From a virus, in the IMG/VR virus record IMGVR_UViG_3300025030_000327, positions 1-30,797 of that record: DNA of 30,797 bases. One strand, given 5' to 3'. Position 1 is the stretch's first letter, and every line of letters starts with the position of its first letter. A program made the position numbers and the translations under genes. Positions 3,982 to 28,158 of the stretch are shown here, piece by piece. Below the pieces are notes generated by a model. The model did not search any database and was not told the DNA's origin. It saw nothing but the letters and a program-made list of their open reading frames with translations.

Positions 3982-5364
3982 TTACAAATTGCCTCCATTT
4001 TTAAATTTTTCATACTTAACTCTCATTCGTCTTTTGGTTTCTTCCTCGTTAACAAGAGAAACAACATTTTGCTTTGGATCAAATTCGTCCATAACTTTAA
4101 TATCTACCACCGACGTATCCATAAAAATATTGAACGTCATTCCGTCGGGGCCATTTCTATTTTTACAAATCGTAAGCCTCCCAGTATTTCTCGTTTTATC
4201 ATCTTGTGTTCGCGATAAACCAAGCGTTAAATATGCGCCGAAATTCTTATTGAGAGCTTCGGAAGTTTGTTCCATTGTGATAACAGAAGAGCCATAAGAC
4301 CCACGATTTGTTTGCGAAGCTGAAAATCCTGCAACATTTTCTTCTTGGCACATTGTCTCAAACTCGTCATAAGTTTCTCCAATTTCATGTCGCAACTCTT
4401 GACGAACTTTCGACGGCTTCAAAAGGTCTAGATAATCCAATACAATAAGGTCTGGAATAAGACCTTGATTTTTCATTCTAGAAATATGATTTCTAACCGT
4501 TACTATCGATGCAGACTTTTTTGCAAAATGCTTAATAATCAATTGTCCTTTTATATGTTGAATATCACTAATGACATCTTTTTTATTATCTCTTAATTCG
4601 TCAATTGGAATGCCAGTTAAACAAGCGTCAAACCTCAAACCAATTACCTCTGGTGAGAGTTCCAAAGTATAAAAAATAACGTTATAACCCAGCTTAAGCG
4701 CATTGGCGGCAACATGGGTTAAAATCATCGACTTGCCACCACCACTAGAAGCCAATACAATACCATATTCTTTTTTTCCTAAGCCGCCACCAATAAGCTC
4801 ATCGATTTTGTCCCAGCCAGTTGGAATTGGATTTCTTACATTTTCAACATATCGCTTTTCGAAATCTTTAATATAGTCATGGCCATTATCAATTTCTGCG
4901 CCAGCCTTCAAGGCATTGTTTATTACTTTGCTTATTTCATCAAATGAATTTGTTTTTATCAGCGAAGAAGACTTGATCATCGCTTCGGCTAATTTTTGTT
5001 TCCTACAAAAATCTAATGACTCAGTTTTGATAAACTCCGAGTCTCCGATGTTGGATTCGGAAACCATTTTTGCATAGAAATCTCTTATTTGTTTTTTTAG
5101 AATGTCATTTTCTTTTTCCAATGAAGTTCGCAACAAAATTTCAATTGCTTCGCGCGAAGGATGAGTTCTAAATTTGTTTTTATAATCAAAAATTCTATCG
5201 GCAAACACTTGAAGATATTTTAGTTCAAAAAATTCAATATTCAGCACTTCCAACATTCTGTCGGAAAAAACCCTATCCTCTAGAATTAAAAACGCAAGTC
5301 TCTCTTGAAAAGTTTTACCAAATGATGTAAACGACGGTGTTGCAACGACATTTTCTTCGTTCAT
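3982..5364 (-). CDS. DnaB-family replicative helicase (T4 gp41-like)
   Basis: A 460-residue hexameric-type helicase, expected to unwind the replication fork 5'-3' on the lagging strand. The N-terminal helical domain (about 1-160) is followed by a RecA-type ATPase core: PTGWDKIDELIGGGL at 181-195, Walker A ASSGGGKS at 205-212, the TLELSPE segment near 233-239, Walker B LIVLDYLDLL at 306-315, and a QTNR motif at 351-354 followed by a SEALNKNFGA segment. Length matches DnaB and gp41. ATG 5364 has GGAG six bases upstream. The reductase start lies two bases past its stop. I see no separate primase gene and no primase domain fused to it; a primase may lie outside the window. Confidence 0.9.
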   Translation of the reverse strand: MNEENVVATPSFTSFGKTFQERLAFLILEDRVFSDRMLEVLNIEFFELKYLQVFADRIFDYKNKFRTHPSREAIEILLRTSLEKENDILKKQIRDFYAKMVSESNIGDSEFIKTESLDFCRKQKLAEAMIKSSSLIKTNSFDEISKVINNALKAGAEIDNGHDYIKDFEKRYVENVRNPIPTGWDKIDELIGGGLGKKEYGIVLASSGGGKSMILTHVAANALKLGYNVIFYTLELSPEVIGLRFDACLTGIPIDELRDNKKDVISDIQHIKGQLIIKHFAKKSASIVTVRNHISRMKNQGLIPDLIVLDYLDLLKPSKVRQELRHEIGETYDEFETMCQEENVAGFSASQTNRGSYGSSVITMEQTSEALNKNFGAYLTLGLSRTQDDKTRNTGRLTICKNRNGPDGMTFNIFMDTSVVDIKVMDEFDPKQNVVSLVNEEETKRRMRVKYEKFKNGGNL

Positions 5365-5537: not shown

Positions 5538-6440
5538 CTATGTGCTATCCAACGAACGATAATCTTTTTCCCAAATATAGACAACTTTAAATCCGTTATC
5601 TTCAAAAGTTTTAATTCTTTCTTTTGTTTCCACCAAAAGCTGTTTCATAGTTTTTTTGTTTATAGGGTTTTTATAATCTGGAGGAAAAGCGGAAGGATTG
5701 CCATGCCAAAAATCTCCCAAAAACTCAAAAATCGTATTAATTTTTTCATCAAAACCGTCAACGATATATAATTTATTATTAATTCTCATCCTCACTTGCC
5801 TTCGTATTATTCCAAGTCCATCTAACCATTTTTGTTCTGGTTTGGAATTATTCCACGTAGGGCATTTGGAGCACCCTCTCCCGCTTAAATGAGAGCGAGG
5901 AGACTGCATGAATTTGCCATGCTTCGGGCAAATTATTCCAACTTTAATTTTATCGCCATTATAAACAACATTAGAATAATTGTAATAAAAATTATGAATT
6001 TTGTTAGCGCCTTCAATAAATTCCGAAAGAGAACTTCTCTTATCTTCATAACTACAATTATTGCAATCGTGACCATTTAAATGGTTGTCTGGTTGTTGTA
6101 AAAAAACTCCGTGCAGTGGGCAAATAATACTAATTTTTGTTTTATTGTTTATATACACTACCAAACTATAATCATAATAAAAACCATGTACCTTGCTTGC
6201 TTCATTTATAAACTCTTGTAGTGTTTTTCTGCACTTGAGACTTCTCTTTTCTATGCCGCATTTTTTACAGCCATAGCCATTTGAATGATCATTGGGACGA
6301 GACTTAAACTCTCCATGAATAGGGCAAATAATACTAATTTTTGTTTTATTGTTTACATACATCTGACCAGGTATAAAATAAAAATTTCCATACAGTTCGA
6401 TAGATTTTTTTCTCAAATTTATTATTTTTTGTTCTATCAT
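5538..6440 (-). CDS. EDxHD (Vsr-like) homing endonuclease with three zinc repeats
   Basis: A 300-residue free-standing homing endonuclease. Three repeats of about 55-60 residues (approx. 10-62, 75-130 and 138-193) each carry an IICPxHGxF segment and a later GxxCxxC, which gives a CxxH/CxxC zinc site. These repeats, often written as YDYS...CPxHGxFxQxPxxH, are common in phage endonucleases and are thought to bind DNA. The C-terminal 100 residues form a Vsr-like nuclease: SKPEQKWLDGLGI, YIVDGFDEKINTIFEFLGDFWHGNP and KTFEDNGFKVVYIWEKDY, with the acidic residues and the His of the EDxHD family. It lies between exonuclease and helicase genes and probably cuts homologous DNA there in endonuclease-free relatives. 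Start ATG 6440 lies five bases after the exonuclease stop. Confidence 0.85.
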   Translation of the reverse strand: MIEQKIINLRKKSIELYGNFYFIPGQMYVNNKTKISIICPIHGEFKSRPNDHSNGYGCKKCGIEKRSLKCRKTLQEFINEASKVHGFYYDYSLVVYINNKTKISIICPLHGVFLQQPDNHLNGHDCNNCSYEDKRSSLSEFIEGANKIHNFYYNYSNVVYNGDKIKVGIICPKHGKFMQSPRSHLSGRGCSKCPTWNNSKPEQKWLDGLGIIRRQVRMRINNKLYIVDGFDEKINTIFEFLGDFWHGNPSAFPPDYKNPINKKTMKQLLVETKERIKTFEDNGFKVVYIWEKDYRSLDST

Positions 6441-6445
6441 TAATT

Positions 6446-7429
6446 TTACTTTTTTCCGTTTTCTGCAACAATGAATCTAAAAGTTTGAAAAATATTTTCC
6501 CAATTATAATCAGCAAATCCATCCAACATCATTTTTGAAATTATCAATGTTTGATTAAATGTTGGAACATAATTTTCAACAATATTTTTGACAGCAAAAT
6601 GTGCTTGCGGCGACATAGAAGGATGATAAAGTTGCATCATTTTATAGTTCAATAATATTTTTTCTTTTGATTCCAACACACGATCATAAACTGTGACTTT
6701 ACCTTTGTGCTCTTCAGCATATTGCATTATGTCGTTAATGTCGCATTCTTTTTTATCAGCCATAAAAGGGAATCTTTTCGCAACTGTTGGCAACCCAACT
6801 CCTTTGACTCCGTTGAGGTTGTCAGAATCGTCTCCAGACAATGCACGTGCAAAAGCAAAATTATTTGGATGTATACCAAATTTTTCAACTATTCTTTTCA
6901 CATTCATAATTTCACTTTGCATTGGCCGATATAATAATACTTCATCATTGCACAACTGAAAAAAATCTTTATCACTTGAAACAATTATTTTTAGCATCCC
7001 ACTAAATTGTGGTAATTTGCAAACATAAGCAATCAAGTCGTCAGCTTCAACATTGTCTTGGCGAAGCTGGACAACTGGCATTTCATTCAGATAAGAAATC
7101 AGCCTGCACATTTGATCCATTTTGTTTTGTTGCTCATCGTTTTCTGAAAGCAACCTAACAGAACGATTTAGCCTTGACGGAGTGCGACCGCTTTTGTAAT
7201 CTGCATTAAGACGTTTACGTCTTTTAGAGCCGCCTTCACCGTCCCAAACAAGAATAATTTCATGAACAGGGTGCATTTCTTTAGATATTTTTTGAAGGCT
7301 TTGTAATAGGCCTTTTACGGCTCCGCAAGGAAGGCCATCAGCACACAATGAAGGGTTTGCGATATAATTTCTCAAAAACAAATTTAAAGCATCAACAACT
7401 AGAACGCGTTTTTTAGGATTTGTGGTCAT
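6446..7429 (-). CDS. 5'-3' exonuclease / RNase H (FEN-like)
   Basis: A 327-residue structure-specific nuclease similar to T4 RNase H, expected to remove RNA primers and 5' flaps during lagging-strand maturation. Metal-binding acids are in place: Asp13 (VVDALNLFLR), Asp63 (LVWDGEGGSKRRKRLNADYKSG), the EADD cluster at 128-131, and Asp153/Asp155 in SSDKDFF. Next come GDDSDN at 199-204 and the helix-3-turn-helix GVKGVGLPTVAKRF at 207-220. T4 RNase H is 305 residues, so length fits. Two homing endonuclease genes flank it, the HNH gene upstream and the EDxHD gene downstream. The Shine-Dalgarno sequence is weak, but ATG 7429 is the only sensible start. Confidence 0.88.
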   Translation of the reverse strand: MTTNPKKRVLVVDALNLFLRNYIANPSLCADGLPCGAVKGLLQSLQKISKEMHPVHEIILVWDGEGGSKRRKRLNADYKSGRTPSRLNRSVRLLSENDEQQNKMDQMCRLISYLNEMPVVQLRQDNVEADDLIAYVCKLPQFSGMLKIIVSSDKDFFQLCNDEVLLYRPMQSEIMNVKRIVEKFGIHPNNFAFARALSGDDSDNLNGVKGVGLPTVAKRFPFMADKKECDINDIMQYAEEHKGKVTVYDRVLESKEKILLNYKMMQLYHPSMSPQAHFAVKNIVENYVPTFNQTLIISKMMLDGFADYNWENIFQTFRFIVAENGKK

Positions 7430-7447: not shown

Positions 7448-7996
7448 CTATTTGTTTTTATTGTAGTTTGCAATTAATTTGCTATAGTTGATGAAATCTT
7501 GTTGAGACATATCTTGTTTCATAAAATTAACGTCTTTATGAAGCCACTGAACATTGCCAATTGTATAGCCTTTGTGAGAGTTAATACGATCCAAACTAGC
7601 AGTGCCGTCGGAGTTGAAAGAGTGTGACTTAAATTTAAGCTCTACGCCAGTCAAAGCGCACTTTCCACCTTGTGCTAAAAACAAATCCCATAAATATTCT
7701 TTTGTTATGTTAAACAATAAATTCCTTTCATTAGCACTATTTTTACATTTTCTCCAATAACTTCCAGGCATATCTCCAACGCCAGTCCAATTAGGACTAT
7801 TGCTTCTATACTGTTTAATTCCAACGCAGCCACAAGATTTCGTCTTGTGTCTTTTAAGAGAGCCACTATCTATAATTTTTTCATTTCCACATTCACATAA
7901 ACATTTCCAATAAGCTCTGCAACTTAAAGTATGAGAGTATTCTATGACAGTTAAACGCCCAAATATTTGTCCTGTCAAATCAATTCTATTCGACAT
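7448..7996 (-). CDS. HNH homing endonuclease
   Basis: A 182-residue endonuclease. The N-terminal module GQIFGRLTVIEYS, then WKCLCECGN and KTKSCGC, is the four-cysteine DNA-recognition domain often found before phage HNH nucleases. The HNH nuclease follows: CALTGVEL near residue 112, then SLDRINSHKGYTIGNVQWLHKDVNFMKQDMS, where Asp-Arg-Ile-Asn-x-x-x-Gly-Tyr and Asn-x-Gln-Trp mark the family. It begins inside the 3' end of the UvsX-like gene (11-base overlap), using GAGAGTG in that gene as a likely ribosome binding site, and ends just before the exonuclease gene. That is the seamless insertion expected of a mobile homing gene. Confidence 0.88.
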   Translation of the reverse strand: MSNRIDLTGQIFGRLTVIEYSHTLSCRAYWKCLCECGNEKIIDSGSLKRHKTKSCGCVGIKQYRSNSPNWTGVGDMPGSYWRKCKNSANERNLLFNITKEYLWDLFLAQGGKCALTGVELKFKSHSFNSDGTASLDRINSHKGYTIGNVQWLHKDVNFMKQDMSQQDFINYSKLIANYNKNK

Positions 7997-9122
7997 TTAT
8001 TACACTCTCTTCTTCGTCATTTCCATAATGAAACTTCGCATCACCAGTTCTATCATTAAATTTCGTAATAACTTCCGTATCCATTATTTCCAACGCTCTT
8101 TCCTTAAACAAAGAATCCGCTTCCATCAATTCTTCCCAGTCTTTTCTTTGGAAAGATTTTAATGTCCCATCTTTTAGTTTAATTTTATACCACGCACCAG
8201 CTTGTTCTAAAAATGGGCTAATTGCATTAAAAATACTTTCCATATCTCTTATCCCAACTGGATCGTCGCCCCAAATAATTTTGAAATTACAAACCCTTCC
8301 TTCTGTGCCAAATCTAGACTTCTGTAGCCTGGCCTTTACTTCAGAACCAACTCGATATCCTTTATCATTCAGGACATAACTATCTTTTGCTTTTACCCCC
8401 GTTAACCATATACTTAAACTGTAGGAATAAGTAAGGGCTTTCCCGCCTGGCGTAAAATAAGGATTTATTTTCATTTGAGATGTATCACCCAAGTTTGTTC
8501 GAAGCTGATTTAATACAAGCAATGTTGAATTGGCATTCGCAATGGGAAGGGTAAGTTTTTGCATACCGATTGAAAGTACGCGGGGCTTCCGAGCCATAGC
8601 ACTTTGTGGGTTGAACTCATCGCTTTCGATATCTAATTTACACGGACAGTTCGCTACCGAATCAAAAACATATAGAATGTTTTCTTGTGACAACAGCGTT
8701 TCAATTGTTTCAAGCACGAATTCTACAGTTGTAGCCTGAATATACACAAAATTTTCTGGGTTCAAGTCTAATCCGATTTTTTGCAAAAATTCTGAATCAA
8801 TCGATGACTCAGAGTCAAAATATACAACTTTCATTCCCATTTTTTGGGCATTTGCCGCTATGCATGCCGCCATATAGGATTTTCCCGATGAAGGTAAACC
8901 TGCTAATTCCGCCACTTTTCCCACTGGAATTCCAGCATATTTGCCCTTACAAATTATACTATCCAGCCATCTGCAACCAGTCGGAATCCATCTTTTTACA
9001 TCTGATGGATTTTCATCTTTCAACGAAAATGCAACGTCATACCCGACCTTTTTATTGAGCAATTTCCTTATGTCTTCGCCGCTTAACGCACCAACTTTTT
9101 CTTTTTGTTTTTTAATAGCCAT
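7986..9122 (-). CDS. uvsX: UvsX-like RecA-family recombinase
   Basis: A 378-residue strand-exchange ATPase that would load on SSB-coated single-stranded DNA for recombination-dependent replication and repair. Walker A GLPSSGKS is at 75-82, a catalytic-region segment YFDSESSID at 101-109, Walker B ILYVFDS at 149-155, an LNQLRTN segment at 204-210 and PGGKAL at 225-230. T4 UvsX is 391 residues. The frame is open to 9155, but ATG 9122 is chosen because GAGGAG lies four bases upstream, while the earlier codons lie in the hairpin region after the SSB gene. The C-terminus is acidic (NDEEESVINVE). It is co-directional with SSB, from which a strong hairpin separates it. Confidence 0.9.
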   Translation of the reverse strand: MAIKKQKEKVGALSGEDIRKLLNKKVGYDVAFSLKDENPSDVKRWIPTGCRWLDSIICKGKYAGIPVGKVAELAGLPSSGKSYMAACIAANAQKMGMKVVYFDSESSIDSEFLQKIGLDLNPENFVYIQATTVEFVLETIETLLSQENILYVFDSVANCPCKLDIESDEFNPQSAMARKPRVLSIGMQKLTLPIANANSTLLVLNQLRTNLGDTSQMKINPYFTPGGKALTYSYSLSIWLTGVKAKDSYVLNDKGYRVGSEVKARLQKSRFGTEGRVCNFKIIWGDDPVGIRDMESIFNAISPFLEQAGAWYKIKLKDGTLKSFQRKDWEELMEADSLFKERALEIMDTEVITKFNDRTGDAKFHYGNDEEESVINVE

Positions 9123-9140
9123 TTTTCTCCTCAAAATACA

Positions 9141-9177
9141 AAGGCGAAGGAGCAACTTAACATCACTCCTTCGCCTT
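9141..9177 (-). terminator. 12-bp perfect hairpin between SSB and recombinase genes
   Basis: AAGGCGAAGGAG at 9141-9152 pairs perfectly with CTCCTTCGCCTT at 9166-9177 across a 13-base loop. It lies 19 bases after the SSB stop and just before the recombinase ribosome binding site. On the minus strand the stem is followed by TGTATTTTGAGG, a weak U tract, so it may be a partial terminator or a 3' mRNA-stabilising/processing hairpin, letting SSB be made in excess of the recombinase. Confidence 0.7.
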
Positions 9178-9196: not shown

Positions 9197-9940
9197 TTAA
9201 TCGTCTGCCAATTCTTCAATTGCTTTATCTAAGTCAGTAATTTGCACTTCTGGTGATTTTACTGCGCCATACTTTTTTACTTCTTCGCCATCATAAGGAT
9301 TGCCCAAGAAGGTCTCCAGAGTTTTTTGAACTTCCGCCGAAGTCTTTCGCTCAAAGAAGATTTCTAATGGTTTGATCTTGTCTAGAATATCTTTAATCTC
9401 CTTTTTCGATTTTGCAATTGGCTTTGTCGCTGGCTTAACTGAAAAATCAATAATTGGAAATTGCGCACCCTTTTCATACGACAATTTGATATCTCTTCCG
9501 TTTTCAGGATCTGTGATATCTCCATAGTCTGGGTCTAGCGTATGTTCAACCAACTTCTTGAACATTTTTCTTCCATACCCATATGGTTTTGGCCCTTCTT
9601 CTTCTTTTCCGCGAACAAGAATATTGGAGAAGAATCGTTGTCTGGCGAACAATCCTTTTGCCATTTTTTGACTCTCTTCTCCGCCCTCCTTCCACAAACT
9701 GTGTGCGTATTCGCAAATTGCACAGTACTCGCCAAAGTTTCTCTTTGGACACATTACAGCCGTTCCTACGTTGTAATGGAAGTAGATTTCCTTATATGGT
9801 TCACCGTCTTCTGACGGCAAAATTCTAAGTTCATGTTCGCCAAAGTCTGGTCTGAAAAACTCATCATTTTTTTGATTTTTCCTTTTCTTGCCGTCCAAAT
9901 CGTCTAGCTTCTCTCGCATTTTATCTAAATTAATCGCCAT
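9197..9940 (-). CDS. Single-stranded DNA-binding protein (T4 gp32-like)
   Basis: A 247-residue SSB that coats single-stranded DNA at forks and recombination intermediates. The basic N-terminus (KKRKNQK, residues 18-24) resembles the cooperativity and DNA-contact region of gp32. The core begins FFRPDFGEHELRILPSEDGE. A zinc site of gp32 type is readable as His55, Cys64, Cys73 and Cys76 (FHYNVGTAVMCPK, then GEYCAIC). The C-terminus is acidic (DLDKAIEELADD), as needed for contacts with partner proteins. T4 gp32 is 301 residues, so this form is somewhat shorter. GGAG lies six bases before ATG 9940. It sits between the tubulin-like and recombinase genes and is followed by a strong hairpin. Confidence 0.88.
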   Translation of the reverse strand: MAINLDKMREKLDDLDGKKRKNQKNDEFFRPDFGEHELRILPSEDGEPYKEIYFHYNVGTAVMCPKRNFGEYCAICEYAHSLWKEGGEESQKMAKGLFARQRFFSNILVRGKEEEGPKPYGYGRKMFKKLVEHTLDPDYGDITDPENGRDIKLSYEKGAQFPIIDFSVKPATKPIAKSKKEIKDILDKIKPLEIFFERKTSAEVQKTLETFLGNPYDGEEVKKYGAVKSPEVQITDLDKAIEELADD

Positions 9941-9963: not shown

Positions 9964-10818
9964 TTATTTTTGAATTATGCTTGTGTATTTTAAACAATAC
10001 ACAAAATTATGCTCATAGCTTGTCGCATAAACTCCATACGACACTCTACTACTTTGTTCTTCTTCGTTTCTTTCTTTTATGAAAGATCTAATTTCATTCA
10101 TTGTATTAGAATTGTTTTTCAAACTTTCTTCCGAATAGCCGAAATAATAAACCGAATCTGTTACGTTGTCAACATCAAAAAACACTCTTTCTTCTTTCAT
10201 TTCTTTATCAAAAAAACCAAAGGTTGCTATTCTTGCTCCTATGGGAATCTTATGAAACACATCAAACACTGGTCGACTATTCTGTAAATTAGAAATAATA
10301 TAATATGCCGAAGCAATTGTTTCATTTATTTTATCTTGATAAAGTAAAATTGGTATCCCACCATAATGAACGTCGATTGACTTGCTTGAAATTAAAAATA
10401 TTGCTTCAAACAATCCTGACCTGGCGTATTCTTGCAATACTCCATATACTAATCTTTCTTTTGCTTTGTCTTCATCTCGCAACAAATCAATTTCAGGCTT
10501 CACGTATAAAACACTTATTGAAAAATCGTTTTTCAGTTGTTCTAGAATGGCCAAAGACGAAAGAGAAATATCACTTCCTCCACTGACAACAAAAAGCAAT
10601 TCGCCTTTTAGCTTTTTTATATATTTTTTAATCGATGGAAAATTACTTTCATATTCTTCAGAAGTATTATATGACGGCACTTTAATAAAGTTTATTAATT
10701 TGTTATCAACATTATGCTCTTGATCATCAAAGCAAATAAAATTAGACTTCATGCCAATTTTCGCAAATTCTTTTACAACTCCAAATCCAATTGGTCCAAG
10801 TCCTACAATGGTCTTCAA
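9964..10818 (-). CDS. Divergent tubulin/FtsZ-superfamily-like protein
   Basis: A 284-residue protein whose first 180 residues follow the FtsZ/tubulin GTPase layout. An N-terminal glycine loop MKTIVGLGPIGFGV is followed by helix and strand. VVSGGSDISLSSLAILEQLK at 77-96 sits where the tubulin signature GGTGSG and helix H4 should be. SVLYVKPEIDLL follows, then a long helix (ERLVYGVLQEYARSGLFEAI) and YQDKINETIASAYYIISNL at 160-178, resembling the loop and helix H7. The signature is degenerate (GGSDIS), so GTP binding is uncertain. The rest (190-284) lacks a clear tubulin C-terminal match. The start is a TTG overlapping the polymerase stop, supported by GGAGAAA five bases upstream. A plain NAD(P)-type Rossmann protein is an alternative, since GLGPIG also fits GxGxxG. 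Confidence 0.55.
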   Translation of the reverse strand: MKTIVGLGPIGFGVVKEFAKIGMKSNFICFDDQEHNVDNKLINFIKVPSYNTSEEYESNFPSIKKYIKKLKGELLFVVSGGSDISLSSLAILEQLKNDFSISVLYVKPEIDLLRDEDKAKERLVYGVLQEYARSGLFEAIFLISSKSIDVHYGGIPILLYQDKINETIASAYYIISNLQNSRPVFDVFHKIPIGARIATFGFFDKEMKEERVFFDVDNVTDSVYYFGYSEESLKNNSNTMNEIRSFIKERNEEEQSSRVSYGVYATSYEHNFVYCLKYTSIIQK

Positions 10819-12005
10819 TTGACTTTCTCCATTGAACCGAAATTGCTTCCAACTCGCACATTTACTTTGAATTTGCCATAATCTGTTTCGGAAAGAATTT
10901 CTATCATATCTTTTGTATGTTTTGCATCTTCATCTCTTAAGTCTATCACAACGCTATCGTGAAGCAAAATAGTAATTTTAGACTTCATATTGTTTTTTTT
11001 CATAAAACCTTCTAGAGCGATAACTCTTCTGGAAAAGATATCCCATGACGTACTTTGTACCAAATAATTTAATGCAACTTCGTTATTACATTGGATTTTT
11101 CTCCCAAAAGGATTATTGACCTCTTGCCCGTTGTAAAACTTTTTCAATAGATTTATCTTGTTATATGCTCTGTCTATTTTTTCTATTCCGAACTTGGCTT
11201 CAATATCGTTTGCATAAAACCAAGCAAAAAACTTTCTTTTAATCTCCTCGCGCGGATATTCTTCTTCCATCAAAGACGCATGCCAGTCGTGTATGTCGTT
11301 TTCTGGTTGTTGTTCTCCATTCAACGCCAAAAACGTTCTAATGTCGGCTGCATTGTAGTCAAATTCCAAGAACCAATTATTGTTGGGTTTTATAAACTTA
11401 CGAAAGTTTTTATTTAGTGTCAAAATTGGAAATGAACCTTTTTTTGTCGTTAAACGACCCGTCACGGTTCCAAAATTTTGATATTGAATATTATACGAGT
11501 GAAAATGAACAATTTTATTCAATAAATTATTGACTTTTATATCATCTTTTTCTTTTTTCATAACTTCAATATCAATATTCAATTTGTTAATTGATATTTG
11601 TTTAATCAATTTTTCTATTCCAACCAAGTAATCGTAATTTTCAGGTTTTTGATAGTTTTTAAATACATGCTCACATATCTCATTTTTCATTCCAAAATAA
11701 TCTTCGACAAACGACGTCGGTAAAAGCTCATAAAACAAAGTTTTACTTACTGATACTTTTGCTTCTTTGAAAGACTTTTCATACGACTGGTGTAACGTAG
11801 ACAATTTATTCCATTGGATTCTTTTTTTATCCTCGCAGGCGTTTTCCAATGAAAGACCAAAACAATATAAATTGGCATATTGCATTAATTCGTTATGATA
11901 AAAAGGACTATAAGACCACGTGTGCGTTAAATTAACGCAGTCGCCAAGGCGTGAGACTTTATTTTGAGCTAAAACTTTATCTTTTCCAATAAGCTGAAAT
12001 AGCAT
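10815..12005 (-). CDS. Short family A DNA polymerase
   Basis: A 396-residue polymerase of the PolA/T7 type. TGRL at 182-185 begins the polymerase domain, motif A DYNAADIRTF (216-225) carries the first catalytic Asp, motif B IKRKFFAWFYAND (255-267) carries the conserved Lys and Tyr, and motif C LLHDSVVID (347-355) carries the second catalytic Asp. Typical enzymes have DYSxIELR and HDE, so both motifs are altered (Glu to Asp, and Glu to Ser). The 180 residues before TGRL show none of the DEDD exonuclease motifs, so proofreading is either lost or supplied elsewhere. At this size it is smaller than T7 polymerase (704) or a Klenow fragment. It leads the replication block directly after the last virion gene, and its stop overlaps the tubulin-like start. 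Confidence 0.85.
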   Translation of the reverse strand: MLFQLIGKDKVLAQNKVSRLGDCVNLTHTWSYSPFYHNELMQYANLYCFGLSLENACEDKKRIQWNKLSTLHQSYEKSFKEAKVSVSKTLFYELLPTSFVEDYFGMKNEICEHVFKNYQKPENYDYLVGIEKLIKQISINKLNIDIEVMKKEKDDIKVNNLLNKIVHFHSYNIQYQNFGTVTGRLTTKKGSFPILTLNKNFRKFIKPNNNWFLEFDYNAADIRTFLALNGEQQPENDIHDWHASLMEEEYPREEIKRKFFAWFYANDIEAKFGIEKIDRAYNKINLLKKFYNGQEVNNPFGRKIQCNNEVALNYLVQSTSWDIFSRRVIALEGFMKKNNMKSKITILLHDSVVIDLRDEDAKHTKDMIEILSETDYGKFKVNVRVGSNFGSMEKVN

Positions 12006-17113: not shown

Positions 17114-19807
17114 CTATGTCCCTACCATGTTCAATTTCATGCTTCTATCAAAAACGTTTATTACTGCTCTACCAAACTCTCTTCCATCGATTTGTAAAAT
17201 AACTGGAATTTCAGAAGTGTTATTTCCGCCGACGCCGCCCTTTTGAGACTGTAAGTTGACATTATTTGTTTCGATAGATTTTCGAGTCAATTCTTCTTTA
17301 CGTGTCATTTGCTCTATTCTAGAACTTTGAACACTTTCGGCAGCCGATGTCAATTTGCCGCTATTTTCGTTTGTTATAACATTCGAACCCTCCGACAACG
17401 ACACAAGTTCTGGCCCGTTTTCACCAACTAACGCCATCCCACCACTAAAATCAGTTGCGCCTCTAGCTAATTTCGGACTTATTGCCGCCAAGTCTGGCTC
17501 TATCCCAACTAGGTCTGGTTCGATTGGCACCAAGTCTGGCTCTATCCCAACTAGGTCTGGTTCGATTGGCACCAAGTCTGGCTCTATCCCAACTAGGTCT
17601 GGTTCCACTATCATCGATGGCGACTTCATTGTCTTGCGCGCGCCAGGTATTAATTCTATTATCGACGAAATCGAACTAGTAATTTTATTTATAATGTTTC
17701 CAACAAAATTAGCCAACCCAGAAAACAAACTCTTGAGACCATTGATGGCAACATCCCAATTATTATATAACAACATTCCTAATTCCGCCAGCGAATAGAC
17801 TGGACCCAATACAACATTAGCTGCGTCCCATAAACTATAAAATCCACCAGTTGCATTTTTTATGGCATCATTGACATAATTGAAAGCATTTACTGCTTTA
17901 GTTTTTACTTCATCCCAATAATTTATCAACACATAAACAAGTCCAATTACGCCTGCAATTGCAAGCGCAATCAATGTAACAGGCCAAATTGCCGCGTACA
18001 AAGATGAGCCAAACAACGCAATCGCAACAGCACCAACTTTAAAAGCAACTATCGCCATAAGAACCAATCCAGTTAAACCAATTAACGCAAACGTAATTTT
18101 ACCATAAATTGAGTCGACAAAATGTAAAACTGCAATTAAAATGCCATTAATTACATTTAATAATGGCAAAGCCGCAACAGTAAGTGATTCCATAATTTTT
18201 GCCATTTTTTCTTGTGCACTTGTTGCAGCAATTGCTCTTTTTTCCATTTCTTCGGTCGACATAGCGTTTGCATCTACTGCTTGTTTTGCTTTTTCAATTT
18301 CTTCCGAAGAGCGACCAAATAATTTATTAGCCTCTGCCATATCCTTTATTCCAGCAGCATTAGCTATTGCCATCTGTTCAAACTTATTCATTTCGCTCCA
18401 ATTTCTTCCCGAAAGAGAAATGCTTTCCCTCAACATATCAATTCTTTCAGCTTCTGTTGCAGTCAATAAATCAACCGAATTGAGAAGGTTGCCGCCAAGA
18501 ATTGCATTCAATTTGCCAGCGGCTTCCGCTGCACCTTCGAATGTGTCGAATTGTTGTGCAACACCAATCAAACTTCCAATTTCAATACCAGTTGCTTTTG
18601 ATTGGGCTGCAAGTTCTTTGAATATTTGCACTGATTGTTTGCCATATTGTGCCAATTTTGGAATTGATGCAGTAAATTGACTAGCTAACATTCCTGGTGA
18701 AAGTCCAAGTTTTGTCGCAACGGTTGCAATTTGTTTTTGCGCATTGACTGACTCCGTAATGTTCATGCCAAGTGCTTTTGTCGATAAATCTAAGTTCTTA
18801 GCTGTCGTTTCCGACGAAATACCCATTCTATCAAATAAAGCGGTTGTCCTTGTAAGTTCCGTTTGAGATTCTTTGCTCATTTGATTAAAGTTTGTCAAAT
18901 TTAAGAAAAGAGATTGAATAGCGTTGGCGGATTCTTCCATTCCAACGCCAGCAGCCAATGAACCAAAACGAACATCATCAATTATATCATTATACTCTGC
19001 GCCTGCGCCTGTTGCTTTTTGAAAGGATGCAAGTGTAGAATCCATTTTCAAACCCATGTGAAGCGTTGCAAGGGCAACTGTTTCAACTGCGTTAGCAAAA
19101 AGATTGGCAGGGTGCAACGCAGCTAGCAAAACTTCTTTGGAAGCTTTCATTGTATTCTTTATGTTGTCCATAGAACCAAACAACATTTTTGTTTTTCCAA
19201 GCCATTTTTCTGTATAATCTTTTGAACCAATTATCTTTTTGGCAATGTCTTCTAGAAAACCTTTTGTTTCTTTATACTGTTTATTATTTTTTTCGTCGAA
19301 TGCAATTTTTTCTTTTCTCTTTTTTACTTCCCCTTCTAGCGACTTCCTACTTTCCTCGGCCCTTTCTATATCAACTTTGAGAATTGCTTCCAGAACTTCT
19401 TTTTCCGACCCAGCAGAATCTATTTTTTCTTTTATAATCTCCAGCATATTAGTGGCCAGTTGTAATTGCTCTTTTTCTTTCTCTAAAATAGCTTTTTGAG
19501 CCAGAATTAGTTTTTCCGCGTCTGAGATTGCTTCTTTATCGTCCAAAGACAACTCGTCATCAATTTTCTTTATTTGTTTCTTTACGTCCCGTTCTTTTTC
19601 TAAAGTTTTTGTTATATTGTCAAATTTCTTTATTGTTGATCCAGCTAGATCAACCGTATCGGCAGTAATATTCTCAATTTCTTTTACTGTTTTTTTAACT
19701 TCTGCAAAAGGTTTATTAAGCTCTGACGCAAGATTCTTAAACTCCTTCAAAACAGAGTTTAATTCTTTAAGAACCTTGACTAACTCTTTTTGTTCTTCGT
19801 TTGCCAT
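17114..19807 (-). CDS. Tail tape measure protein
   Basis: An 897-residue protein that would set tail length and be released through the tube. The first 200 residues are coiled coil (KELVKVLKELNSVLKEFK and following). The middle has tape-measure style helices such as GAGAEYNDIIDDVRFGSLAAGVGMEE. Residues about 545-635 contain several hydrophobic segments (ILIAVLHFVDSIYG, ALIGLTGLVLMAIVAF, VTLIALAIAGVIGLVYVLI). A run of EPDLVGI/EPDLVPI heptads follows at 734-775, then GATDFSGGMALVGENGPELV, a segment common near the C-terminus of tape measures. With the usual 1.5 angstroms per residue the tail would be about 130 nm long (inference). ATG 19807 has AAAGAG upstream. A 103-residue gene separates it from the gp26-like locus. 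Confidence 0.88.
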   Translation of the reverse strand: MANEEQKELVKVLKELNSVLKEFKNLASELNKPFAEVKKTVKEIENITADTVDLAGSTIKKFDNITKTLEKERDVKKQIKKIDDELSLDDKEAISDAEKLILAQKAILEKEKEQLQLATNMLEIIKEKIDSAGSEKEVLEAILKVDIERAEESRKSLEGEVKKRKEKIAFDEKNNKQYKETKGFLEDIAKKIIGSKDYTEKWLGKTKMLFGSMDNIKNTMKASKEVLLAALHPANLFANAVETVALATLHMGLKMDSTLASFQKATGAGAEYNDIIDDVRFGSLAAGVGMEESANAIQSLFLNLTNFNQMSKESQTELTRTTALFDRMGISSETTAKNLDLSTKALGMNITESVNAQKQIATVATKLGLSPGMLASQFTASIPKLAQYGKQSVQIFKELAAQSKATGIEIGSLIGVAQQFDTFEGAAEAAGKLNAILGGNLLNSVDLLTATEAERIDMLRESISLSGRNWSEMNKFEQMAIANAAGIKDMAEANKLFGRSSEEIEKAKQAVDANAMSTEEMEKRAIAATSAQEKMAKIMESLTVAALPLLNVINGILIAVLHFVDSIYGKITFALIGLTGLVLMAIVAFKVGAVAIALFGSSLYAAIWPVTLIALAIAGVIGLVYVLINYWDEVKTKAVNAFNYVNDAIKNATGGFYSLWDAANVVLGPVYSLAELGMLLYNNWDVAINGLKSLFSGLANFVGNIINKITSSISSIIELIPGARKTMKSPSMIVEPDLVGIEPDLVPIEPDLVGIEPDLVPIEPDLVGIEPDLAAISPKLARGATDFSGGMALVGENGPELVSLSEGSNVITNENSGKLTSAAESVQSSRIEQMTRKEELTRKSIETNNVNLQSQKGGVGGNNTSEIPVILQIDGREFGRAVINVFDRSMKLNMVGT
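17481..17607 (-). repeat. 42-bp repeat encoding EPDLV heptads in the tape measure
   Basis: Units beginning CAAGTCTGGCTC at 17489, 17531 and 17573 recur every 42 bp. Each holds two 21-bp halves, encoding alternating EPDLVGI and EPDLVPI. Six heptads are readable, the last changed to EPDLAAI. Copies are almost identical, so slippage could alter their number. The antisense ORFs in this area are by-products of the repeat. Confidence 0.9.
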
Positions 19808-20490: not shown

Positions 20491-21262
20491 AATCCTGTTT
20501 TAAGTCCAGGTTTGGCGCCAATCTTGCGTATTCCTCCCTTATAAAACTAGAATGCCTTGCAAGCATTTTGTTGACAAAATCTTCAACGTATTGTCTAGAA
20601 GAATTGCCATTAACAGAAACAATGATTGTCTTTAGTTGGTCCATCAATGGAGATTCTGGAAGATTGTGCTTCTTCTTTTTGTCTGCCATCATTTTCAATG
20701 CCTTTTCGTCATTGCCCGTCAAAAGCTTTAGTTCGACTTTTGTGTTTGTTTTTGGAAGTGTTATTTCGAACGTGCCAAGAGACGATAGACGTGCATTATC
20801 AACTTCTTCTTTTAATTTAATGTCCAAAAGATTAAATTCATGAACTGTTTTTGTGTCACAAACAGGGCACATTACATTTGTCCTATATTCTGGCCCATAA
20901 CCTGTAATTCTAGCCGCCAGAACAATTGCATTCTTGTCGCTAATAAGAAGGTCATCGATTTTTATATTTTTGTCGACAAGAACACCTTGAACCATTTTGT
21001 CAATAGCGATACCCTTTTGTAGAAGGCTTTTTGATGTTAACACCTCCTCATCTTTAGCCGTCATATGACGAATTTCTACAAAATCTTTATTATGCAAAGG
21101 ATGCCCGTCGGGGTAATAACGTCCCTTCGATGGCAATTCGACAGCTTCTGTTGGACAAACAAAAGAAATGTCAGTGCCTTGCTGCACAATTTGATCTGCC
21201 GAAGAAGAATCATTTGAAATCTCTTCTGGTGAAAGTCCAAGTCTTTCTTGATTATTTCTCAT
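20414..21262 (-). CDS. Baseplate hub assembly protein, T4 gp26 (T4_baseplate) family
   Basis: A 282-residue protein. The segment VELPSKGRYYPDGHPLHNKDFVEIRHMTAKDEEVLTS (read at 41-77) is the hallmark of the T4 gp26-type baseplate family, and related proteins sit before the tape measure in many T4-like phages. Two cysteine pairs, CPVC at 132-135 and CPTC at 260-263, probably form a zinc ribbon. The final residues end at the overlap with the next frame. ATG 21262 has AAAGG seven bases upstream and lies inside the 3' end of the preceding GIY-YIG gene (11-base overlap). In T4 gp26 acts in hub formation. A tail-assembly chaperone role is equally compatible with this position. Confidence 0.75.
   Translation of the reverse strand: MRNNQERLGLSPEEISNDSSSADQIVQQGTDISFVCPTEAVELPSKGRYYPDGHPLHNKDFVEIRHMTAKDEEVLTSKSLLQKGIAIDKMVQGVLVDKNIKIDDLLISDKNAIVLAARITGYGPEYRTNVMCPVCDTKTVHEFNLLDIKLKEEVDNARLSSLGTFEITLPKTNTKVELKLLTGNDEKALKMMADKKKKHNLPESPLMDQLKTIIVSVNGNSSRQYVEDFVNKMLARHSSFIREEYARLAPNLDLKQDFECPTCGSFSRVGIPFTTDFFWPGR
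20428..20434 (-). other. Run of seven T, candidate frameshift site
   Basis: On the minus strand the end of the gp26-like gene reads GAC TTT TTT TGG CCT GGA CGA TAA. A +1 (or -2) slip on the T run gives TTT TTT GGC CTG GAC GAT, which continues into the 86-residue ORF. The window of overlap between the two frames is from the stop at 20414 to about 20499. Confidence 0.4.
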
Positions 21263-22049
21263 TTTTTAACCTTTCTGTCATTTTCCAACTTTTACCATTC
21301 AAAATATGCTCTATCATACTACGACTAACATTGTATTCTTTAGCTAGCATACTTTGAGAGTAAATTTTAGGAATATATTTATTTTTTATTTCTATTACTT
21401 GTTTTTCTGTAAGTTTGACATTGGACCCGTTTTCACCAGACAATTTTAATATTGTTTCCTCGGAATGGTTTTTTCCAAACATTGGATGATTTTCACCAGC
21501 TTGAATGCCTTTGTGCGATTTAGACATTTCTTTCCTTGTCTCTTCAGAATGATTTTTTCCATAAAAATGATTTTTTTCGCCTTTTCTTGAGTCTGACATT
21601 CTTTGTCTAGTTTCTTTCGAAAGAAGCTTACCAAAATTATGATTTCGTTCACCTGACATTCTTTGCTTGGTTTCCTCAGAAAGAATTTTCCCTTTGTGTG
21701 CGTCAGATATTTTTCGCTTTGTCTCTTCCGAATGGAACGTGCGTCCATTTGTGTATTTTACAATATTGTAGCCGCTTTCATCGTTATATGACTTATGGAA
21801 ATTAATCCATTTTTGCTCCAAGGTGGAAAGATTTTCTATCTCACATTCTTCTACCGTTTCGAAAGAAAAATTATCTTTTCCATACTTATTCCACGCAGCC
21901 TGAAGATGGCCATTGACATGCTTGTTCTCATTTAATTGAGAAAAATGCGCATTCTTTCTAGTTTTTAAACTATTGGTACTGCCAATATAACACTTGCCAT
22001 TGACAAGGTTTGTTATTTTGTATATACCTGGAACTCTTTTAAATTCCAT
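21252..22049 (-). CDS. GIY-YIG homing endonuclease with NUMOD3 repeats
   Basis: A 265-residue free-standing homing endonuclease. The nuclease domain is at the N-terminus: GIYKITNLVNGKCYIGST, the GIY-YIG pair with a short loop between, then RKNAHFSQLN, NGHLQAAWNKYG and the catalytic Glu region LEQKWINFH. Repeated HSEETKxxMS/GENHPMFGK units (about 105-205), the NUMOD3 type, form an elongated DNA-binding arm. A C-terminal helix-turn-helix follows (QVIEIKNKYIPKIYSQSMLAKEYNVSRSMIEHILNGKSW). The start is ATG 22049; the frame has a TTG one codon earlier. It stands between tail tube and gp26-like genes and overlaps the latter. Confidence 0.9.
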   Translation of the reverse strand: MEFKRVPGIYKITNLVNGKCYIGSTNSLKTRKNAHFSQLNENKHVNGHLQAAWNKYGKDNFSFETVEECEIENLSTLEQKWINFHKSYNDESGYNIVKYTNGRTFHSEETKRKISDAHKGKILSEETKQRMSGERNHNFGKLLSKETRQRMSDSRKGEKNHFYGKNHSEETRKEMSKSHKGIQAGENHPMFGKNHSEETILKLSGENGSNVKLTEKQVIEIKNKYIPKIYSQSMLAKEYNVSRSMIEHILNGKSWKMTERLKNEK

Positions 22050-22064
22050 CAAAAACTCGTTTCA

Positions 22065-26698: not shown

Positions 26699-27190
26699 CT
26701 ATAATGAGTCGAAAAGGTCTTTGCGCGCTCGGATGCATTTGGCTGATATCTGAACTTTATATTGCGTTTGCCCAAACATTTCTCTTGGTTCCCAAAGCTG
26801 GATTATCTCATAAAAATTGCATCCGTACGCAACCATATCTCCAACTTTTGGAACAAGATCCTGATCTTCGTTCATTCTTCGTTTGTGAAAATGAACAGTT
26901 ATTTCAGAAGTGTTGTCAACCCCGTAATTTGTTGTCGTAGAAGGATTATCTTGCCATTCTATCGTTGCGAAACAGTGTATTGGTGGAAGGAATGATTTCT
27001 TAATGCATTCATTATATAATTGATGAAAATTGCTATTATCAAGCGAAATCGGATATAAAATTACTTGTTGACCAATAATGCGATCCTGGTATTCCTCAGC
27101 CACTTGCTTGACAAGATCGCGCTCTTTCTGACCCGCGAATAGGGGGGGAGGCGGGGCGGAAAGTATGTCGAATTTATTGTCGTCGCTCAT
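26699..27190 (-). CDS. Head completion / neck protein (gp14-like)
   Basis: A 163-residue protein. The segment EITVHFHKRRMNEDQDLVPKVGDMVAYGCNFYEIIQLWEP (read at about 93-132), then FGQTQYKVQISAKCIRAR, has the pattern of T4 gp14 (a strand, then EGDL, then a strand ending in WVEPYDPFYQLGQ, then ITAGKFIYSG), although the chain is shorter than the 256 residues of gp14. Its place between the gp13-like and gp15-like genes supports this. The N-terminus holds a proline run (APPPPLFAG). ATG 27190 overlaps the stop of the upstream GIY-YIG endonuclease by four bases. In T4, gp14 acts with gp13 to finish the head before the tail joins. Confidence 0.65.
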   Translation of the reverse strand: MSDDNKFDILSAPPPPLFAGQKERDLVKQVAEEYQDRIIGQQVILYPISLDNSNFHQLYNECIKKSFLPPIHCFATIEWQDNPSTTTNYGVDNTSEITVHFHKRRMNEDQDLVPKVGDMVAYGCNFYEIIQLWEPREMFGQTQYKVQISAKCIRARKDLFDSL

Positions 27191-28158
27191 ATAAAAGTCT
27201 CATTGTTTATAATTTTTATAATAGTTTTTTGATTAACATTATAAAATTTTGCCAATTCAATTACTGAACGTTTTTTATCAAAAAACATTTTTTTTATTTC
27301 TTCGACTTGAAATCTGGACAAAAAACTTTTCCCCCTAGAATCATATTTTCCTGGGGTGTACAATTCATCTTTGAACGAAACATTGTTAACTATCCTTCCG
27401 ATAGTACAAGTTTTAACATTAAACCTATCGGCGAGCTCTTTCTGAGTAAGAAACTCATCGTTATAAATTTTTCTTATAGAAAAGGCCTCGTTTTGTGTAA
27501 TTTTTGCGCTTGTCGATTTTTCTCCGCAATACGTATTTTTTCTAATTTCACTCCAATGTTCCTTTGTTTCGCTGGAATGCCGACGACCAAACATTGGGTT
27601 ATTTTCTCCACTCGAATCCCATTTTAATTTCTTAGTCACAACTTCAACGCTTTCATCAATCCAAGACAAATTTCTTATAATTTTATTGATTGTAATATCA
27701 CAAGTTCTATATTCTTTTGCCAAAGAACTAATTGAAATACTTCCACTGCTATATTTTTGTCTAATCTCTTCAACTTTCTTCCAGGTCAATTTCGCATTCG
27801 AACTATTTTCGCCTCGCATTTTCTTTTTTGTTTCTTCCGAATGCTTAAATCCTAACGTACCATTAACCATTTCGCATAAATTATATCCAACGTTTCTATC
27901 ATATGGTTCCCACATATCTAAATAAAATTGCTCTCTTTGCAAAAGAAACTTTCTATCCTTTTGAAACGTTTCCAAAATTTCAAAAATGAAACTTTCTTTT
28001 CCATTTTTGTTCCATGCATATTGTAAATGTCTATTTACATGTTTGCCTCTTTTTAGTTCAGATTTGTGGCCACTCCAACGTTCTTCGACATTTTCAGAAC
28101 TCCCAATGTAAAATTTACCATTTTTAATATTGGTTATTTTATATATTCCACAAGTCAT
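27187..28158 (-). CDS. GIY-YIG homing endonuclease with three HTH segments
   Basis: A 323-residue free-standing endonuclease. The N-terminal catalytic domain reads GIYKITNIKNGKFYIGSS, then RWSGHKSELK, NRHLQYAWNKNGKESF and the catalytic-Glu segment LLQREQFYLD. The rest is DNA binding: NUMOD3-like HSEETKKKMRGENS and GENNPMFGRRHSSETK, and three helix-turn-helix units near 128-165 (SSLAKEYRTCDITINKI), 220-255 (KELADRFNVKTCTIGRIVNN) and 285-320 (IELAKFYNVNQKTIIKIINN). It lies between gp13-like and gp14-like genes, with its stop overlapping the gp14-like start (ATGA), an insertion without damage to either. The other GIY-YIG gene (21252-22049) has one HTH. Confidence 0.9.
   Translation of the reverse strand: MTCGIYKITNIKNGKFYIGSSENVEERWSGHKSELKRGKHVNRHLQYAWNKNGKESFIFEILETFQKDRKFLLQREQFYLDMWEPYDRNVGYNLCEMVNGTLGFKHSEETKKKMRGENSSNAKLTWKKVEEIRQKYSSGSISISSLAKEYRTCDITINKIIRNLSWIDESVEVVTKKLKWDSSGENNPMFGRRHSSETKEHWSEIRKNTYCGEKSTSAKITQNEAFSIRKIYNDEFLTQKELADRFNVKTCTIGRIVNNVSFKDELYTPGKYDSRGKSFLSRFQVEEIKKMFFDKKRSVIELAKFYNVNQKTIIKIINNETFI

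Follow-up and report, generated by a model that had tools for sequence, protein, structure and literature searches.

Tubulins are viewed as GTP-driven filament formers that serve in division, shape, DNA segregation and, in jumbo phages, the positioning of the phage nucleus. What, then, is the role of a tubulin-like gene that lies inside a viral replication operon, directly behind a DNA polymerase gene? The question arises from a gene, here termed X, in a virus record of 30,797 nucleotides (the window, meaning the whole stretch of DNA that was analysed). A preliminary description had seen in its product a divergent tubulin relative that had lost the GTPase signature and might be used in replication, and had named a plain Rossmann dinucleotide-binding protein as the alternative. 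Our analysis suggests that this ocean-virus tubulin relative, encoded in a polymerase operon, works in DNA replication and not as a normal dynamic filament.

The 284-residue protein of the preliminary description proved real and to lie where it had been placed, between DNA polymerase and SSB; to this we add that its strand is the minus strand. Read along that strand, the gene order is baseplate-like genes, orf402, PolA, X, SSB, UvsX, 5'-3' exonuclease, DnaB-like helicase and ribonucleotide reductase. The genes that matter here are the following.

10815 to 12005, minus strand: family-A DNA polymerase (PolA), about 396 residues, polymerase domain only (PF00476, E 8.5e-14; phrog_17).
9964 to 10818, minus strand: X, a predicted minimal tubulin-fold protein of 284 residues (reading frame from the window's ORF list, homologues, AlphaFold2 model, tubulin-fold matches).
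9197 to 9940, minus strand: gp32-type SSB, downstream of X (PF08804, E 7e-17; phrog_1192).
7986 to 9155, minus strand: UvsX/RecA-like recombinase, sharing the replication operon with X (phrog_97, E 1e-52; PF00154).
6446 to 7429, minus strand: 5'-3' exonuclease, within the conserved gene order of X loci (PF02739).
3982 to 5364, minus strand: DnaB-like replicative helicase, within the conserved gene order of X loci (phrog_19, E 4e-64).

No exonuclease domain was detected in the PolA of the window. X begins with a TTG codon, at the alignment position where most relatives have an ATG start, and its stop codon occupies 9964 to 9966 (minus strand). The TTG overlaps the stop codon of polA (TTGA, in the context AATTGA), so that the two genes are probably translationally coupled. 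The same operon encodes a 300-residue protein of repeated treble-clef-like (DUF4379/DUF723) units (5538 to 6440, minus strand). Elsewhere in the window, two GIY-YIG/NUMOD3 homing-endonuclease-like genes (21252 to 22052 and 27187 to 28158, minus strand) stand amid the structural genes, a 42-bp tandem repeat at 17481 to 17605 encodes repeats of EPDLVGIEPDLVPI within an 897-residue tape-measure-like reading frame, and the contig end (1 to 235) holds a tandem array with 3.4 copies of a 69-bp unit.

To what family does such a protein belong? X had no meaningful match in Pfam, PHROGs, NCBIfam, PDB sequences or isolate phages, and a search of IMG/VR with the window protein alone returned no relatives. 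The family was reached via a related UvsX locus, in which a 40%-identical protein in the equivalent place seeded an alignment; this two-sequence alignment led to 50 viral loci, and 35 proteins then formed a larger alignment (A2), with which at least 594 viral contigs carrying X relatives were found. Profile searches with the family gave weak and scattered matches only (Pfam, PHROGs, NCBIfam, PDB sequences), the strongest being phrog_24038 (7e-5) and GvpG (7e-4), each in four of 35 members and neither informative as to function. Isolate phages of INPHARED yielded no X by tblastn with four different members, and the PolA of X loci had no isolate phage match either. X marks hundreds of uncultured marine viruses without an isolate relative, whose replication machinery is unstudied. 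Nor was any description of a polymerase-linked, signature-less tubulin found in the open-access literature, a scope that most subscription papers fall outside.

The sole match in genome contigs was a polA-X-SSB-UvsX phage fragment in the 'chromosome' of a WOR-3 MAG (CP070664.1, 2243228 to 2260046). Because this phage piece is flanked by N runs within the bacterial scaffold, it is probably a scaffolding chimera, and WOR-3 as a host was rejected. Within the phylum of that MAG, a second, divergent tubulin was noticed in a 674-residue frame (G041:C30:54012-54545; 31.9 bits, under the Pfam cut-off).

Structure prediction places X more firmly. AlphaFold2 with the single X sequence was uninformative (pLDDT 45.6); the model built on the 35 relatives of A2 reached a pLDDT of 94.1 and a pTM of 0.92. 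The best 50 Foldseek matches in the PDB were all TubZ, FtsZ or tubulin, headed by the TubZ 4ei8 (E 2.8e-12). VIA-align gave CetZ (3zid) as its best match (Z 24.9, 2.8 A over 260 residues), together with TubZ 4ei7 (Z 23.6), FtsZ 2r6r (23.1) and tubulins (about 22); these matches span residues 1-284 of the model, hence both domains, and the best 50 VIA rows were all of the tubulin superfamily, with no NAD(P)-binding Rossmann protein among them. Leading matches among viral structures include phage proteins named 'FtsZ Cell division GTPase', 'Cell division protein' and 'Tubulin'. The predicted model also follows the tubulin order of an N-terminal nucleotide-binding domain, a core helix H7 and a C-terminal domain. 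On this model, the fold of X is that of the tubulin superfamily in both domains.

A plain Rossmann NAD(P)- or dinucleotide-binding protein would have explained the GxGxxG at the N-terminus and the weak TrkA_N or saccharopine dehydrogenase matches (E 0.016 or worse) of a few members. A match of all 50 best PDB structures to the tubulin superfamily at full length, C-terminal domain included, makes this highly improbable, and the dehydrogenase reading was rejected on the structural search (Foldseek, VIA). The divergent tubulin relative of the preliminary description, with homologues in hundreds of viral contigs and a confident model that matches tubulins, is thus no chance resemblance and prevailed over its Rossmann alternative. 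Profile searches without a tubulin match, which it had named as a refuting outcome, did formally occur at the level of sequence-profile libraries, where X passed no FtsZ/tubulin family cut-off; the relation is seen in the fold, and at the sequence level in weak profile-profile alignments, collinear with FtsZ (X 3-167 to FtsZ 14-194, P 0.03) and, from T1 to H7, with a phage tubulin, Y, described below (X 4-184, P 0.007). Sequence-level evidence of tubulin ancestry is accordingly weak, and ancestry is drawn mainly from one predicted model.

Which parts of a tubulin has X retained? With strands and helices named by tubulin order, the model comprises, in sequence, S1 (3-7), H1 (8-21), S2 (26-31), S3 (42-46), H2/H3 (53-67) and S4 (72-78); then H4 (83-95), S5 (99-107), H5 (115-133), S6 (139-144), H6 (145-152) and H7 (157-179); and finally S7 (197-204), a strand at 209-212, S8 (221-229), H10 (239-253), S9 (258-266) and S10 (272-279). 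H8 and H9 are missing from the model: no helix stands between H7 and S7, and the short strand 209-212 stands in for H9. The elements named in the preliminary description were all recovered: its glycine loop is GLGPIGFG (6-13), VSGGSDIS occupies 78-85, the long helix covers 115-133, and the H7-like segment is the helix at 157-179. Individual features lie as follows.

10780 to 10803, minus strand: T1 loop, GLGPIGFG at residues 6-13, with the family pattern GLGxAGCN; its FtsZ counterpart is GVGGGGGN (family conservation; hhalign of X 3-17 to FtsZ 14-28).
10558 to 10587, minus strand: T4 loop, VSGGSDISLS at residues 78-87, with the family pattern xGxGxISGA; compared with GGGTGTG of FtsZ, the loop is shorter by 2 residues.
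10414 to 10434, minus strand: QEYARSG, residues 129-135, at the C-terminal end of H5 (conservation, secondary structure of the model).
10384 to 10386, minus strand: T6 position, residue 145 (the Asn of FtsZ IPN), Asn in 94 of 103 members and Ser in the window copy.
10282 to 10350, minus strand: helix H7 (157-179), in which Y160 and N165 occupy the guanine-contact positions F182 and D187 of FtsZ.
10231 to 10281, minus strand: residues 180-196, the place of the FtsZ T7 loop and H8, with no NxDxxD and no helix.
9967 to 10230, minus strand: C-terminal domain, S7-S10 with H10, with conserved Y224, T266, Y268, Y274 and Q283.

Conservation of these motifs was scored in 103 non-redundant members. The tubulin signature GGGTG[ST]G occurs in none of the 103, which bears out the loss reported in the preliminary description and extends it to the family. 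The catalytic T7 motif NxDxxD is likewise absent from all 103, and no column between residues 174 and 200 is more than 61% acid. X belongs to the superfamily at the level of its predicted fold but, since neither of the two defining motifs tested is present, to no canonical GTPase family.

The preliminary description's idea of a non-GTPase protein was sound in that the signature and the T7 acids are gone, but it goes too far if a lost signature is taken to entail a lost nucleotide pocket. G6, G8, G11, G80, N145 and N165 occur together in 89 of 103 members; in H7, Tyr160 is found in 94 and Asn165 in 97 (at FtsZ F182 and D187 by hhalign), the latter also at the position of tubulin N228. Across the family, the nucleotide contacts are in place, namely the glycines of T1 and T4, the Asn of T6 and that of H7, and most of the nucleotide pocket is, to judge from the alignment, kept. 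Because these residues are conserved, nucleotide binding is more likely than none, and because the T7 acids are missing, canonical trans-hydrolysis would not be expected; bound GTP or GDP without canonical hydrolysis is thus the more likely state.

The window copy is itself divergent at family-conserved positions (C12F, D30F, N145S, H173Y, M174I and N176S), and with the T6 Asn among the residues it has lost, its own pocket may be degenerate. One could read this as a trend, with X a decayed tubulin that persists as a nucleotide-free structural subunit. S145, F30 and S176 of the window copy would suit such decay, as would a T4 loop that is shorter by two residues; retention of all six scored pocket residues in 89 of the 103 members speaks against it, and we consider it decidedly unlikely.

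The strongest conservation lies elsewhere. Q129, Y131, R133 and S134 are invariant in all 103 members and form a family-specific motif, QxYxRS, which is the most conserved stretch of the protein; L89 and Y268 are the further invariant residues. By analogy with other tubulins, the ends of H5 and H7 would lie on the face opposite the nucleotide, at the would-be T7 site. It is tempting to ask whether X still forms filaments. A PhuZ/TubZ-like cytoskeletal protein with an unusual active site could position or segregate phage DNA, with the invariant R133 and the conserved H173, N176 and R196 on the T7 face replacing the catalytic acids or stabilising GTP filaments. The would-be protofilament surfaces (the nucleotide pocket, and the ends of H5 and H7) are indeed the most conserved parts, and tubulins do serve phages in the centring of DNA (PMC4244570). 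Yet the T7-H8 region, which provides longitudinal contact and catalysis in FtsZ and tubulins, is missing, and the gene sits with PolA and has no known centromere-binding partner beside it. A filament of this kind is, in our judgement, unlikely.

How tight, then, is the association with PolA? Of 115 loci retrieved through X, 71 have polA as the closest identified gene upstream; in the other 44 that place is taken by a small MazG-like gene, named by eye and without a Pfam match, which itself comes after polA wherever the contig extends far enough. X starts within 20 nt of the upstream gene in 106 of these 115 loci and overlaps it in 88; on the downstream side, SSB comes first among the identified genes in all 120 loci scored. 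A reciprocal test, less prone to bias, fetched loci with PolA only and left X aside: wherever such loci had room downstream, X was present (75 of 75), in a few of them at a distance of about 0.8-1.9 kb, and a 76th contig ends 460 nt past polA. X is an obligate neighbour of the exonuclease-less PolA, followed by SSB, UvsX and helicase, and co-occurs with replication genes in a shared operon. Linkage in related phages, about which the preliminary description had asked, is thus essentially absolute, and from it we infer a role in replication that the linkage supports well. Operon linkage denotes co-expression and co-inheritance and is no proof of physical contact.

X was also looked for in genomes whose sole PolA is a divergent one (E-values of 1e-10 to 1e-22 with A3) and was absent from them, other genes coming after that PolA. 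In the loci examined of sister lineages of this type (L338-L347), an unrelated ORF of about 160-195 residues, mostly starting MNEE, follows polA, and several divergent-PolA loci also have a DnaQ-like exonuclease (named by eye) downstream. At one X locus (L002:5340-6265), polA and X are separated by an inserted ClpP-like protease gene (PF00574, E 3.5e-24) and a MazG-like gene.

Pairwise distances across 24 loci correlate best between X and PolA (r 0.84), with the highest partial correlation among all pairs (0.52), a suggestive value given 24 genomes, non-independent pairs and the co-inheritance of neighbouring genes in any case. Inhibition of FtsZ is common among phages, and X might act on host FtsZ as a decoy or cap, with the retained nucleotide (top) face of X docking on the T7 face of FtsZ so as to block the filament end and division. 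Loss of T7 and H8 with retention of the top face is the expected look of a one-sided cap. We nevertheless hold this to be quite unlikely: a gene for host takeover should differ from host to host, whereas X is invariably linked to PolA and co-diverges with it across divergent phages, which fits replication better, and the strongest conservation falls on the opposite face.

Taken together, a nucleotide-binding, probably non-hydrolysing, tubulin-fold partner of PolA is the best explanation of the fold and the linkage that we observe; its biochemical side is what we infer, and we give the whole slightly better than even credence. Put differently, X is somewhat more probably than otherwise a minimal tubulin-superfamily protein dedicated to the replisome as a partner of the exonuclease-less PolA. 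Translational coupling would yield X together with PolA. X would hold a stably bound GTP or GDP, as a structural ligand or as a switch, with hydrolysis slow or nil, and could act as a fixed adaptor in the form of a monomer, dimer or short stack, which would set it apart from a dynamic PhuZ-like filament. The QxYxRS and H7-end surface, which contacts the next subunit in other tubulins, might hold PolA, SSB or another X, and the fork or a replication focus would be the site of action. X might even be a processivity or tethering factor of PolA, considered here because no recognisable gp45-type clamp was found, a weak piece of evidence: the gp45 sliding clamp (PF02916) was not detected in 16 X contigs with a positive T4 control, but gp45 diverges fast and the contigs may be incomplete. 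A stronger proposal, that a tubulin fold has been turned into a core replication factor, as a nucleotide-binding, non-hydrolysing and obligate accessory subunit of the family-A polymerase of marine T4-like phages that form an abundant lineage and are uncultured, is one that we advance tentatively and consider doubtful.

Some of these uncultured marine viruses encode two different tubulins. Y, a protein of about 360 residues (family L162), was found on an X contig (IMGVR_UViG_3300025131_009739, 103389 to 104480, minus strand; L162:1027-2121) and occurs in at least 107 viral contigs, with no isolate phage match. Its GVGGGGGK, GGGGGTGSA, DNE and T7 FDSKDLE motifs are intact, and its alignment with FtsZ takes in the whole protein (P 1.4e-11). 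The Y gene adjoins a weak late-sigma-factor match (phrog_234, E 0.018). Possession of both tubulins as a rule in X phages was rejected, Y being present in only five of 14 X contigs of 147-204 kb, which may be incomplete. Where it does occur, this second, canonical FtsZ-like tubulin could fill the filament role considered above for X.

A large polymerase-tied family that keeps the fold and the pocket while the catalytic parts and H8 are gone would represent a new job for the superfamily. Furthermore, the X family offers a natural test of which tubulin parts serve which task.

Set against known tubulins, X is close in fold and distant in motif and setting. CetZ, an archaeal tubulin/FtsZ paralogue (3zid, 4b45), has the top structural score over both domains at 16% identity; X, however, lacks the GGGTG[ST]G signature, the T7 acids, H8 and H9, and CetZ is a cellular cytoskeletal protein whereas X belongs to a phage replication operon. 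With FtsZ, X shares the fold (Z about 22-23), the T1 GLGxAGCN, the T6 Asn and an H7 Asn at the D187 position, but has no FtsZ profile match and neither the signature nor the catalytic NxDxxD. Y and X are both of the tubulin superfamily, with catalytic motifs intact in Y and none in X. A survey of FtsZ/tubulin evolution contains neither the word 'phage' nor the word 'virus' (PMC9871819), a survey of marine jumbo phages mentions only the phiKZ-type tubulin (PMC9123017), and in reviews phage tubulins are PhuZ/TubZ proteins with a task in phage-nucleus positioning or DNA segregation (PMC7824862, PMC13282480). PhuZ and TubZ, tubulins of phages and plasmids, share the fold of X, which is likewise encoded by a phage, and phage FtsZ/tubulins are among its viral structure matches, although a profile comparison of PhuZ with X was not significant (P 0.37). 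PhuZ of 201phi2-1 keeps GGGSGS, and about 10 kb separate its gene from that of the polymerase, whereas X in the window directly adjoins PolA.
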